Below, piece after piece: positions 43,535-52,249 of a stretch of DNA of 64,000 nucleotides. A program made the translations under genes and the position numbers. The notes under the pieces are model-generated. The model did no database searches. It saw only the letters and a list, made by a program, of their open reading frames with translations, and was not told the origin of the DNA. Numbering within the stretch: position 1 is the first letter of the stretch; every line of letters begins with the position of its first letter. Origin of the DNA: Mycobacteroides chelonae CCUG 47445. Its GTDB lineage: Bacteria > Actinomycetota > Actinomycetes > Mycobacteriales > Mycobacteriaceae. The stretch is taken from assembly GCF_001632805.1 (NCBI RefSeq), contig NZ_CP007220.1, positions 4,402,001 through 4,466,000 on the forward strand, in the 5' to 3' direction.

Positions 43535-46723
<3,189 letters not shown>

Positions 46724-48041: not shown

Positions 48042-48051
48042 GCGCACCCGT

Positions 48052-48115
48052 CCTCGACACGCCCGTTTGTGGCGAACATATGCGAGACGGAATCGCCGCA
48101 ACACGACGTGTCGGG
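48052..48115. terminator. Bulged hairpin downstream of aspC
   Basis: Arms at 48052-48075 and 48093-48115 pair as CGACACG with CGTGTCG and TGTGGCGA with TCGCCGCA, separated by a mismatched internal loop, around a 17-nt terminal loop. It lies 10 bp after the stop. Dimensions match the hairpins at 11559 and 18185, again at a gene end and at the left border of the accessory insert. Confidence 0.5.
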
Positions 48116-48425
48116 GGTTCGTTCCCGCACGGCGGCATTCCTACCCCGGCAAACCAATCACGAGTGCTTACTTCAACAAGAACACATTAAAATGCATTGC
48201 TAGCAATTTAGTTGAATACCGAGAATATTTATAGACAATATGAACATTCACGGTATGCCGATTCGTGCATAGGGATAGGTATTGCGCATAGGCACTCCAG
48301 TTGATAACTTTCGTCCGCGCGAGTGAATAGGGTATTTCACAGCGTTTGATGCGGCGGGAGAATTACTCAGGGCGGCGGCCCACAATGCGCTTATCTGCGC
48401 ATTGTGGATTTGAGGGGTGACTTGT
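48116..48425. other. AT-rich intergenic region at left edge of the toxin insert
   Basis: Positions about 48150-48330 are markedly AT-richer than the rest of the window (for example ACATTAAAATGCATT and GAATATTTATAG), typical of horizontally acquired DNA bound by Lsr2. No gene is seen on either strand apart from a chance antisense frame. It probably contains the promoter of the toxin gene. No transposase remnant, att repeat or tRNA could be identified. Confidence 0.7.
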
Positions 48426-50783
48426 ATGAATACTTGTCGTTTTTGCGTGAACGCATTGACAGCGGGTTTTTTGGTGGCGGCTGGCTCGGTTGCGGTATCG
48501 GATTTGGTGGCGATAGCTTCCGCGGAACCAACTGGCGGGGGCGGCACGCACAGTTCCGATTCGGGCAGTTCACATGGTGGCTCATCGGAGTCGGCGTCTA
48601 AAACGTCTGGTGCCGCCTCATCGAGCACAACCAAGACATCCGGCGGAGCCGAGAGCAAGGCCTCGGGGGCTACCGGGGTTTCGTCTACCGGACAGCGTGA
48701 AGCGGGCAGTCATGCCGGAGTGGACTCTCCCAGCAGCACCGATGCTTCCGCTCGTTCAGCGGGAACGGCGCCGAAGCCTGCGGCGTCACGCCCGGCAGAC
48801 TCAGCCGCTGCCACGGGTCACAGCACTGTTGGTGACGCGGCGCCTGCCAAGAAGACGCGAGCACTCACCGACCCCAAACCCGCTACCTCCGGCCAATCCA
48901 ATCCCTCGAGCAGCCAGTCGACTTCTCAAAGTCCCGTTGGGGCTTCTCATGAGGCGAAACCACAACCCGACGGCCAAGCTGCGCGCAGCGGACTCAGCGT
49001 CACGGCTGCAACCGATTCGCCAACAAAGAGCACCGACACAACCGATGCTCACAGCGCGTCAGCGTCCAAACACAAGTCTGATACGTCGTCGGCCCGCGCA
49101 GATGCCAATGCCACGACGTCCAACGGAATTTCCGGCGGCAAGGACTCGGGCAAGCAGAGCACCGCTAAAGCTGTCGAGCCTGGTGTGACCTCGACCGTCC
49201 GGATCAGCCACCCCGCACCCGACGCTGCAGCAGTCACGAACGTGAAGGTTCCTGACCACCTGGCGACCCTGCAGATCCGAACTCAAGACAACGTGGCCGC
49301 GCGGGCTGAAACCCTGAAGGCGACGGCGGATCCGCTGGCGCCGCCAGCGTCGGTCCCCTCAGTCCCGGTACGCCCGCTGCCCGCACCTGTACCCGTGCCG
49401 GTGGTGCCCGCCAATGCGCCCACAGCGCCTGGTGCGACAGGCTCGATCACTTCGGCACTGGCTGACGTGCGTAAACGCGGTGACGCCAGCGGAGATACCG
49501 TCACCCAAGAACCCGCGAACAGCGCCCCTCTAGCCGCACGCTCCCTGGGGGCCACCGAAACATTTGCAGCGGGCGCGGTCGAGACCCGCGGTGCGGCAGA
49601 AGCAACAGCAAGTTCCATGGCCCAGGAAGTCGACGACGTCCCGCGACGGCTGTCTGTACGAAGTGCCGGTGATGCGCTCCCAGCGCCCGATCCCGGCGCT
49701 TCCAGTGCAAGGGCCGCCGAGTTCCGTGCGGCGAAGACAAAGATCGAGACCGACAAGACGACCCTCAAGCAAAAACAGCAGACTCTCGAAACCGAGAAGC
49801 AGCAGTTCCAGGCTGCGGTCGATCAGTACAACAAAGATGCCACCGCACTCAATACCGAGAACGGCCCGATACAGCAGGAGAATGCGGCGCTCACTGCGGC
49901 CATCACGGCCCATAACGCGACATCGTGGCTGTTCAAAGTGTGGCCGCTCAATGGTCCTTACAACGCCGAGGGTGCCGCGCTCGCAACTCGGCAGGCGGCG
50001 TTCAATGCCCGCGTCATTGCCCACAATCTGGCCAAGACCCAGCTCGACGCGCGCGCATTGACGATCAAGTCTCAGGAAGCCAGCATCAATGCCCGCACCC
50101 TGCAGAACCTGGCAGAGGGCATGCAACTGGCGCAAAGCGACCAAGACCTGTCCAACAACATCGCCAACGAGGCACGCAGCATCCACCGTGCGGCCCTTGA
50201 CGCGCAGGAGTGGGCCAAAGGCGAGCAGAATCTGGCTAACATCGCCGCCCAGCACGGTGTCCCCGCCGACCAGCTACCGCGCACTAGCCAGTACAGCCTG
50301 GATCTACCTCAGTTCACCGAGAAACTCGATGCGGCGCACGCTCCGGAAGTGACGCGCCAGGCTGATCTGTGGCAACACGGATTCAACACACAAACCGTGC
50401 AGCAGGCACTCGACAACACCACTAACCCCCGACCAGTAACTACCGAATTGCGCAACAAGCTGCGGGACGAGTTGGAAATTCGGGCACAGAACGATCTTGT
50501 TGGCGCCGGGTACGGCGTCGCGGAAGCCGCGAAGCTGGCGCAAGATTATGCCCTTCAGCAGTTCCCGAAAGAGTCTGGACTGATCCCACAGCCGGTGCTG
50601 CATAACCCCGACATGGCCATTGGGGGGTCGCCGGATGCCTACACCTACGGGGACTGGCAGGTCAACAATGCCCTTGCTACCCTGACGAAACAAGAAAAAG
50701 ACGCGTTCATCGCCTGGCTGAAAACCCAAGACCCGAATGCGGTCCTGAACGTCAAACTCGAAAGGCCCGCTACTAATGCCTGA
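48426..50783 (+). CDS. Secreted polymorphic toxin with Ntox15-like (HxxD) nuclease domain
   Basis: 785-aa protein from ATG 48426 (GAGGGG 8 nt upstream). A Sec signal peptide (hydrophobic about 10-26, cleavage near ASA-EP at 37) is followed by a Ser/Thr/Ala/Gly low-complexity region (about 38-330) and a Pro-rich linker. A helical coiled-coil section rich in Lys/Gln/Glu spans about 430-620, with the C-terminal domain at about 650-785. That domain carries LHNPDMAIGGSPDAYTYGDW with HNPD at 726-729, the HxxD signature of Ntox15/Tde1-type DNases. The overlapping next gene encodes the matching immunity type. The likely role is DNA cleavage in rival cells after export. The nuclease assignment is by motif; the delivery route is unknown. 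Confidence 0.75.
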   Translation: MNTCRFCVNALTAGFLVAAGSVAVSDLVAIASAEPTGGGGTHSSDSGSSHGGSSESASKTSGAASSSTTKTSGGAESKASGATGVSSTGQREAGSHAGVDSPSSTDASARSAGTAPKPAASRPADSAAATGHSTVGDAAPAKKTRALTDPKPATSGQSNPSSSQSTSQSPVGASHEAKPQPDGQAARSGLSVTAATDSPTKSTDTTDAHSASASKHKSDTSSARADANATTSNGISGGKDSGKQSTAKAVEPGVTSTVRISHPAPDAAAVTNVKVPDHLATLQIRTQDNVAARAETLKATADPLAPPASVPSVPVRPLPAPVPVPVVPANAPTAPGATGSITSALADVRKRGDASGDTVTQEPANSAPLAARSLGATETFAAGAVETRGAAEATASSMAQEVDDVPRRLSVRSAGDALPAPDPGASSARAAEFRAAKTKIETDKTTLKQKQQTLETEKQQFQAAVDQYNKDATALNTENGPIQQENAALTAAITAHNATSWLFKVWPLNGPYNAEGAALATRQAAFNARVIAHNLAKTQLDARALTIKSQEASINARTLQNLAEGMQLAQSDQDLSNNIANEARSIHRAALDAQEWAKGEQNLANIAAQHGVPADQLPRTSQYSLDLPQFTEKLDAAHAPEVTRQADLWQHGFNTQTVQQALDNTTNPRPVTTELRNKLRDELEIRAQNDLVGAGYGVAEAAKLAQDYALQQFPKESGLIPQPVLHNPDMAIGGSPDAYTYGDWQVNNALATLTKQEKDAFIAWLKTQDPNAVLNVKLERPATNA

Positions 50784-51525
50784 CGAGAGTTTCGAATACT
50801 TCCTGTCCAAGCTCCCGTTAGCGGTACAAGGACCAGCGTGCACCGACACGCATGTCAACACCTTTACAGGCCTAGTGCCTAACGCACTGATTTCCTACTG
50901 GCAGGAATTCGGGTTCTCCGGGTTTGGCGACGGCGTCATTTGGCTGATTGACCCAATGGAGTGGGCCACAACCACCGAAATCCTCCTTGATGGCCTTCAA
51001 CATCCGCAACTGCCTCCAGACGCGCAATTCATACCCTTCGCCCGCAGCGCCTTCGGCAAGGTCTGGTTCTGGACACCCGGCTACGGCATCACTCTCATCC
51101 TCGACCCAGCTGACGGAACCGCATTCTTCGGATCGCTGATGGATCCTTCCAGAGACACTGACGGGTTACTGACAGCTTTCTTCGCGACAGCGAAGAAGGA
51201 TCGGTTCGATTTTCTGGACAATAGTGAGGAGTACATGTTTGATCGTGTCTCCAAGCGTCTCGGGCCGCTGCAGTTCGACCAGGTCTATGGATTCGCCCCC
51301 GGCATTGTGCTCGGCGGGCCGGTCGTCCCGGAAAACACCCATCTGTTCGAGATTCACGCGCACATGGCGTTGCTGCGTGCTGCGATAGCCGATAGGGAAG
51401 CGTTCGTGGCCTGGTTGAAAACCCAGGATCCCGACGCGCCAGTAAGCATCAAGGCCTTCTGGTCGGACTCGGCTAGCACATCAGCAACCCCCAAGCCGAT
51501 CAACGGTGGCTGGCGGACGTATTAG
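50776..51525 (+). CDS. Tdi1-type immunity protein (GAD-like + DUF1851)
   Basis: 249-aa cytosolic protein with no signal peptide. The N-terminal half (VPNALISYWQEFGFSGFGDGVIWLIDP) fits the GAD-like domain and the C-terminal half (RLGPLQFDQVYGFAPGIVLGGP...) fits DUF1851. This combination defines the immunity proteins of Tde1-type DNases. It overlaps the toxin gene by 8 bp, so toxin and antidote are co-translated. An extra C-terminal tail (about residues 205-249) contains AFVAWLKTQDPDA, almost identical to the last part of the toxin. It should bind and block the C-terminal nuclease domain. Confidence 0.8.
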   Translation: MPDESFEYFLSKLPLAVQGPACTDTHVNTFTGLVPNALISYWQEFGFSGFGDGVIWLIDPMEWATTTEILLDGLQHPQLPPDAQFIPFARSAFGKVWFWTPGYGITLILDPADGTAFFGSLMDPSRDTDGLLTAFFATAKKDRFDFLDNSEEYMFDRVSKRLGPLQFDQVYGFAPGIVLGGPVVPENTHLFEIHAHMALLRAAIADREAFVAWLKTQDPDAPVSIKAFWSDSASTSATPKPINGGWRTY

Positions 51526-51564
51526 CCCCTCGCTATCACCGGGCAGTCCGACAGGGAACACGTG

Positions 51565-52236
51565 ATGGAGTTGGTGAAGGCCTTCCATGACGGCGCAGTC
51601 ATCGACCTCGACGAAGATGATTTTCTTCGTCTGTTCGATGCGCTCCAACACGCCACCGTCGCCGGCTCAACGTCCCGAGGCCCGAACCGAGGTATTGGAC
51701 GTGCTTCACACGTTTTCCATCTCATCGACTGGCTAGTTGTGAACTGCCCCGGTCCGACCTTCTTTGACCGTGGCTTCGGCGTGCATGAAGCTGCCGCCAG
51801 AATCGGTGCTGCCAGCATGGCCGAACAACGATTGGCGGTCAGGATCGATCGTCCCGACACGTCTGCAGTGCGGGCACTGTTCAGCGCAGACGCGCTCACC
51901 ACTCTGGCCGCGGCTACTGACGCCCTGCTCGATGCGTTTGACACCGCCAGACCCGCGAAATGGAAACCGGCAGGTAAGCCCCGGCGCCGGATGCCCTGGC
52001 GAAAGCATGTGTCACTGGCGGCAGGATCGACCACACCGCAACGTTATCCGCGCCGCACGTCTCCAGGCACACTGCCTTCTTGGGAACTGATCTCCATGCA
52101 GCGGATTCAGGAAAAGCTGAATCTAGTAGATGCCCAGCTCGTACGTACGCAACATTTTTCACCTAACACCATGCACATCGGCATGTCGTCGGCCCACAAG
52201 GCGAAATGGTGGAGGCGACTATTCCGTAAAGGGTGA
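51565..52236 (+). CDS. Unknown protein in the toxin insert
   Basis: 223-aa protein, 39 bp after the immunity gene on the same strand. Start ATG 51565 (or GTG 51562) with AGGGA upstream. Sequence is helical, with a leading MELVKAFHDGAVIDLDEDDFLRLFDALQ, a stretch rich in Pro/Arg around residues 128-150, and a very basic C-terminus (KAKWWRRLFRKG). No family is recognised. It could be a further immunity or adaptor protein, or a passenger. It is convergent with udgA, 13 bp apart. Confidence 0.7.
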   Translation: MELVKAFHDGAVIDLDEDDFLRLFDALQHATVAGSTSRGPNRGIGRASHVFHLIDWLVVNCPGPTFFDRGFGVHEAAARIGAASMAEQRLAVRIDRPDTSAVRALFSADALTTLAAATDALLDAFDTARPAKWKPAGKPRRRMPWRKHVSLAAGSTTPQRYPRRTSPGTLPSWELISMQRIQEKLNLVDAQLVRTQHFSPNTMHIGMSSAHKAKWWRRLFRKG

Positions 52237-52249
52237 TATCCCGCGCCGG

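Follow-up and report, generated by a model that had tools for sequence, protein, structure and literature searches.

A putative Sec-exported stalk bearing an Ntox15-like tip beside a Tdi1-type immunity gene in Mycobacteroides chelonae

How could a DNase toxin leave a mycobacterium that has no type VI secretion system (T6SS)? In 2014 the discoverers of Tde-Tdi noted the gene pair in T6SS-negative M. abscessus and remarked that its presence there would mean a different secretion route or some other function (PMC4096383). The type VII secretion system (T7SS) is one proposed answer to that puzzle. A locus in the rapidly growing mycobacterium Mycobacteroides chelonae CCUG 47445 suggests a second, Sec-based answer, in the same cell and with the same family of toxin tips, or warheads. 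It lies in a 64,000-nucleotide stretch (the window) of a genome that forms a single contig of 5,029,817 bp. Here a toxin gene of 785 codons (48426-50783, +) is followed by an immunity gene of 249 codons (50776-51525, +) that overlaps it by 8 bp (50776-50783); these open reading frames (ORFs), their lengths, strand and overlap are as an earlier sequence-only reading had given them. The locus is real and intact. We hold with high confidence that the pair is a toxin with its immunity protein and, judging from sequence comparisons, consider it probable that it belongs to a Sec-routed polymorphic-toxin family. The fuller reading, which we favor with more reserve, is a chromosomal polymorphic-toxin/immunity pair on a Sec-exported stalk, not on a WXG or T6SS carrier, including entry into neighboring cells.

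The Ntox15-like domain of the toxin, assigned by profile and fold, occupies residues 619-785 (50280..50780, +) and contains an HNPD (HxxD) motif at residues 726-729 (50601..50612, +). This motif is kept in 49 of 50 aligned tips, the remaining one reading HNQD, and lines up with the HNPD of 8fzz_A in a profile-versus-PDB alignment. A mostly alpha-helical Ntox15 fold was found both by profile alignment and by structural alignments of the modeled tip to Tde-type structures, the latter at 17-18% identity. By plain sequence, the resemblance is weaker than the earlier reading had implied. The tip alone scores 17.5 bits against PF15604 (E 0.0043), below the curated cut-off of 22.5, and the full-length toxin gives no match to that family at E<=10 and no direct assignment in Pfam or NCBIfam. 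The published T7SS-type paralogue P0046 likewise fails to match PF15604 at E<=1, a level at which 4 of 39 homologue sequences do match, and a search of the toxin's own genome with PF15604 was uninformative, returning nothing, controls included. A profile of full-length homologues (A2) retrieved five rows from the PDB, none of them Ntox15. Of the 82 Foldseek matches to a first model, not one reached E<=0.001, and the best 50 did not include an Ntox15 entry; VIA-align with a second model gave generic coiled coils in most rows, a few of them level with or above 8fzy. The Ntox15-like tip proposed in the earlier reading is supported by profile and fold.

The partner protein lacks any signal-peptide-like stretch and carries a GAD-like domain (PF08887, residues 5-109, 50788..51102, +; 89.1 bits versus a cut-off of 25, 2.1e-25) followed by a T6SS_Tdi1_C domain (PF08906, termed DUF1851 in the earlier reading; residues 134-200, 51175..51375, +; 41.7 bits versus 27.4, 1.1e-10). 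With both families over their cut-offs, the Tdi1-type immunity gene that had been anticipated is borne out. Its solved relatives are 6itw (Atu4351), 8fzz_B and 8g0k_B; the TaeI equivalog NF041834 gave 108.3 bits and its cut-off of 450 was not reached. Residues 206-226 (51391..51453, +) resemble the 3' end of the toxin gene, with 12 of 21 residues identical to the toxin's tail (E 4e-6; 84% DNA identity over 38 bp), and fit the tails of the homologues P0003-P0005 slightly better than that of their own toxin. This piece is absent from the 13 related immunity C-termini compared (several near copies), which end in IG(D/N)(D/N)W(Y/H)V. From its sequence, the toxin-like tail of the gene (51391-51522) looks like a recombination scar or fossil of exchange, or else a modified immunity protein.

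Such a trace of past rearrangement, and a tip that stays under the Pfam cut-off, would suit a decaying remnant without function. Against this, neither frame is interrupted, the motif is preserved, and the window toxin shares its complete architecture with P0003 (41% over 833 columns). We give a remnant very little credence.

The carrier ahead of the tip bears directly on the export question. Residues 1-33 (48426..48524, +) form a putative Sec signal peptide that ends A-S-A before E-P, an assignment made from hydropathy and the A-x-A motif. No 19-residue stretch of the toxin is more hydrophobic than the one at its N-terminus (mean 1.93 in residues 1-45, <=0.93 after residue 45), and an A-x-A site followed by [ED]P occurs in 8 of 9 N-terminal stretches compared; the ninth, from a protein at L009 described below, has a different leader. 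A Ser/Thr/Ala/Gly-rich region follows (residues 36-250, 48531..49175, +), its Ser+Thr content of 35% agreeing with the long Ser/Thr-rich region noticed previously. Next come a conserved Pro/Ala stalk module (residues 255-363, 49188..49514, +), which ends GDTVTQEP and is common to proteins with other C-termini, and a coiled-coil module (residues 425-575, 49698..50150, +), modeled as a long helical hairpin of helices 426-503 and 510-610. The modeled hairpin resembles those of the exported peptidoglycan hydrolases Cg1735 and PcsB, which is perhaps just a common arrangement.

The warhead family itself had been described in mycobacteria before, on a different kind of carrier. Among the 51 matches listed in a protein search limited to 8000 candidates, 43 lack a stalk and show a W-x-[GS] motif close to the N-terminus, another 7 carry the stalk, and 1 is truncated; the motif is a loose criterion, and at E<=1 Pfam WXG100 matched 4 of 39 sequences. 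All 14 related loci compared (13 viral contigs and L010, several of them near copies) have a W-x-[GS] toxin with an ORF of >=70 aa just upstream, and 13 of these, all except L033, have an immunity ORF by the criterion used. Three phage records contain the tip, two of them annotated 'WXG-100 motif and Tde-like DNAse'. The same genome also encodes such a relative: P0046 (732 aa; match C1:1,586,836-1,587,444) lies inside the McProf prophage interval 1,521,426-1,589,648, its tip 54% identical to that of the window toxin over 203 residues and its immunity protein 59% identical over 210, and gp97 of McProf in CCUG 47445 has 732 residues (PMC8191103). Export by a T7SS after all, as in these prophage homologues, would be in keeping with the shared tip family and with a Y-x-x-x-D seen by eye within the tip. 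The window toxin, in contrast, has what looks like a classical leader. Pfam finds neither a WXG nor a PPE domain in it at E<=10, and no small WXG100 gene precedes it (no + strand ORF of >=80 aa within 48042-48416, whereas the 14 T7SS-type loci all have their upstream ORF). We judge T7SS export improbable.

If the carrier is of the Sec type, is it dedicated to this one toxin? P0050 and P0052, which have the same carrier and other tips, align with the window toxin over residues 254-575 and 249-575, and homology to both stops at residue 575. The four T7SS-type toxins compared align with it only from residue 576 or 579 onward. Judged from these alignments, the C-terminal cassette of 210 residues is interchangeable at the junction 575/576. 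Among the matches listed in two protein searches, each limited to about 8000 candidates, 18 proteins have the carrier, 5 with this tip and 13 with others; of the five, P0001 and P0002 correspond to the window's own gene read from later starts, and P0004 and P0005, whose contigs are equally long, are probably one gene. A source is recorded for 3 of the 18, in every case M. abscessus. The 13 other tips fall by eye into three classes (P0050 and P0061; P0051 and P0052; P0053-P0060 and P0062), none with a convincing Pfam family, and a PDB profile search at E<=1 gave no row for P0061 and two weak rows for P0052. On appearance, the first two classes may be small RNase-type toxin folds. In a tree of 50 tips, the window tip clusters with P0003-P0005 (support 0.95) apart from the others, and a protein search with the tip profile found only two further proteins.

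The overlapping toxin and inhibitor genes, and the residence of tip relatives on prophages, might also suggest an intracellular toxin-antitoxin or anti-phage module. A leader, stalk and coiled coil would be useless to a cytosolic toxin, and we regard this explanation as very unlikely.

A second genome of the genus, G219, extends the picture of exchange. Its carrier has another tip, and directly after the stop comes a 201-aa gene without a known family (Pfam, NCBIfam), then a leaderless 183-aa ORF in which the coiled coil recurs together with the tip (38% identity over 143 aa, 8e-15; L016:4787-5968 region). By its sequence, this ORF would be an orphan cassette that could act as a source for tip swaps. 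In a further genome (G077), a Tdi1-type immunity gene at L003:1471-2142 stands behind an ORF with a different C-terminus and is possibly an orphan immunity gene.

Related leaders and stalks also occur on proteins of other kinds. In the same genome as the window, a protein at L008 (979-2310, -; G000 C1:2494.7-2496.0 kb) begins with a leader resembling that of the toxin (57% over 35 aa) and contains an ALTDPKP motif but no such coiled coil; at the C-terminus it matches 8vx3, the exported alarmone synthetase SaSAS/SaEAS, at 1.5e-39. A 91-aa ORF (L008:707-982, -), without a Pfam or NCBIfam family, overlaps the end of this gene by 4 bp and is a possible immunity gene, a partner that SaEAS and VpEAS are described as being without (PMC12691689). 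SaEAS shares with the L008 protein this tip and a Sec-type leader, but the crystallized piece, G36-P248, leaves no room for a stalk (PMC12691689). Nor is the stalk limited to toxins: at L009:1450-3795, 1.5 kb past the right end of the window, a stalk related to that of the toxin (GESAGDTVTQEP) precedes a phosphodiesterase domain of type I.

These relatives lend some weight to a plain extracellular DNase, acting on nutrient or biofilm DNA or in a host compartment, with the immunity protein only guarding the producer's cytoplasm from toxin that folds before export. The leader and stalk would befit an enzyme that is secreted or displayed on the surface, the L009 protein places a related stalk on a phosphodiesterase-type enzyme, and SaEAS works extracellularly (PMC12691689). 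Against this explanation stand the immunity gene of the window locus, where SaEAS and VpEAS have none (PMC12691689), the constancy of the carrier while tips vary, and the orphan tip cassette in G219. We consider it unlikely, though worth keeping in mind.

The preferred reading of a Sec-exported polymorphic toxin would need a means of entering other cells, and the cassette offers a candidate. Its first part, the pre-toxin segment (residues 576-618, 50151..50279, +), is not covered by the alignment to the Ntox15 fold and is common to the T7SS-type toxins. Across the 39 A2 sequences, 9 of its 43 positions are invariant, compared with 54 of 167 in the rest of the cassette; by this count the segment is conserved across Sec and T7SS versions, less so than the toxin domain. 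Because it is conserved across both versions yet outside the aligned fold, we propose it as a candidate for entry, release or attachment.

In the mechanism that we envisage, the toxin would be exported unfolded through Sec and would for that reason not poison its producer. The cytoplasmic immunity protein would shield the producer and its kin from toxin that leaks back or arrives from outside, probably by forcing it apart like a wedge, in the manner of Tdi in Bacteroidales. The tip would enter the cytoplasm of a neighboring, probably related, mycobacterium and degrade DNA there, with residues 576-618 as the candidate carrier of entry information. More speculatively, and at the level of a doubtful extension, members of the M. 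abscessus-chelonae complex may practice contact- or proximity-dependent killing via Sec instead of ESX, in which the stalk and hairpin present interchangeable surface warheads. As prophage T7SS toxins use the same warhead family, the information for passing the target envelope would on this view lie in the cassette itself (perhaps in 576-618), independent of the exporter. The warheads would then be the Ntox15 DNase, the alarmone synthetase and others, on a stalk that is possibly glycosylated.

The target could instead be the host. Both M. chelonae and M. abscessus cause opportunistic infections, and one secreted mycobacterial toxin, CpnT, comes with an antitoxin, so that a CpnT-like phagosome effector comes to mind. 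CpnT, however, joins a TNT domain to a WXG-type N-terminus, and the window toxin has neither by Pfam at E<=10 (nor TNT in NCBIfam), which upholds the sequence-only reading of a signal-peptide-type carrier unlike CpnT, with the leader putative. That reading had left the choice between an interbacterial and a phagosome-directed module. A signal-less immunity gene, exchangeable tips and an orphan cassette are typical of polymorphic toxins that act between bacteria, and they weaken the phagosome alternative; no host-targeting feature was seen, and no search aimed at such features was made. We rate a host-directed role as very improbable.

How much of this is new? The DNase/immunity part is already known in mycobacteria, where T7SS versions of the pair have been described in prophages as PT-Imm or PEST (PMC8191103, PMC9434293, PMC10654092). 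McProf gp97/gp96 shares with the window pair the tip family, the immunity family and evidently the genome (C1:1586-1589 kb), but is described with a WXG-type carrier and a small WXG100-like gene upstream, in a prophage, as opposed to a putative signal peptide, stalk and coiled coil in a chromosomal island (PMC8191103, PMC9434293). In the PEST cassettes of Mycobacterium prophages, toxins whose C-terminal tips vary are likewise paired with immunity genes; one tip has a short stretch resembling Ntox15, and for two cassettes transformability of M. smegmatis was lost without the immunity gene; their carriers are of the ESX/T7SS type and on prophages, and the window carrier is neither (PMC10654092). 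Tde/Tdi of Agrobacterium and Bacteroidales share the Ntox15 fold, HxxD and GAD-like plus DUF1851-type immunity, but are delivered by T6SS, are described without such a leader and stalk, and are 17-18% identical to the window tip (PMC4096383, PMC10470768; 6itw, 8fzy, 8fzz). As early as 2012, Ntox15 toxins of several phyla, actinobacteria among them, were listed as exported by Sec, under Sec and type II secretion system polymorphic toxins, in an Ntox15 entry that names no mycobacterial stalk family (PMC3482391). The window locus shows features of Sec-dependent polymorphic toxins, namely a constant carrier and variable tips with a sharp junction, an adjoining immunity gene and, in G219, an orphan cassette. 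A Sec-type tip-swapping carrier that shares its warhead family with phage T7SS toxins appears undescribed in the open-access literature searched. Two carriers with one warhead family in one strain amount to a natural experiment that separates the exporter's contribution from the warhead's, and the phage-borne and chromosomal pairs allow cross-immunity to be tested.

The carrier was matched in few of the genomes sampled. At E<=1e-3 the stalk profile had matches in 4 of 396 genomes of the genus, two of them strong (the window's own, G000, and G219), and 1 of 61 genomes in a second draw, again the window's own. The matches in G076 (E 1.8e-4) and G163 (E 3.4e-4) were discounted as due to chance, the former because it falls in a protein taken by eye for LytR-CpsA-Psr-type and the latter because its model range and frame length are the same as those in G076, by which alone it was judged. 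The tip profile matched 2 of 396 genus genomes and the immunity protein 4 of 148. At most 7-11 candidates were scored per genome in the genus searches with the stalk, the tip and a further ORF of the island described below, so absences are soft, and the draws may leave out M. abscessus itself. Viral contigs gave 22 pattern matches, not one of which was confirmed to be the carrier. Searched with the immunity protein, plasmids yielded 67 records; none reached 60% identity, and the matches and genera listed included no mycobacterium.

The pair sits in a 4,208-bp island (48042..52249) between genes for an aminotransferase and a UDP-glucose dehydrogenase. Only 85 bp stand there in G219, whose aminotransferase is 99% identical to that of the window, and homology to G219 picks up again on both sides of the island. 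From this comparison, we read the locus as a small insertion, or as lost from G219, and not as part of a prophage, the island being flanked by two chromosomal genes. A further 224-aa ORF inside the island (51562..52236, +) found no family in Pfam or NCBIfam; its candidacy as a second immunity gene is unsupported, with matches in 4 of 392 genomes, strong only in its own. A perfect 11-bp inverted repeat with a 6-nt loop (48380-48407), without an Rfam match, stands directly before the toxin's likely ribosome-binding site. Elsewhere in the window, 43535-46723 encodes a protein that is iron-sulphur oxidoreductase-like by eye and has many GLGMAGGAKRPGAKKA-type repeats toward its C-terminus.
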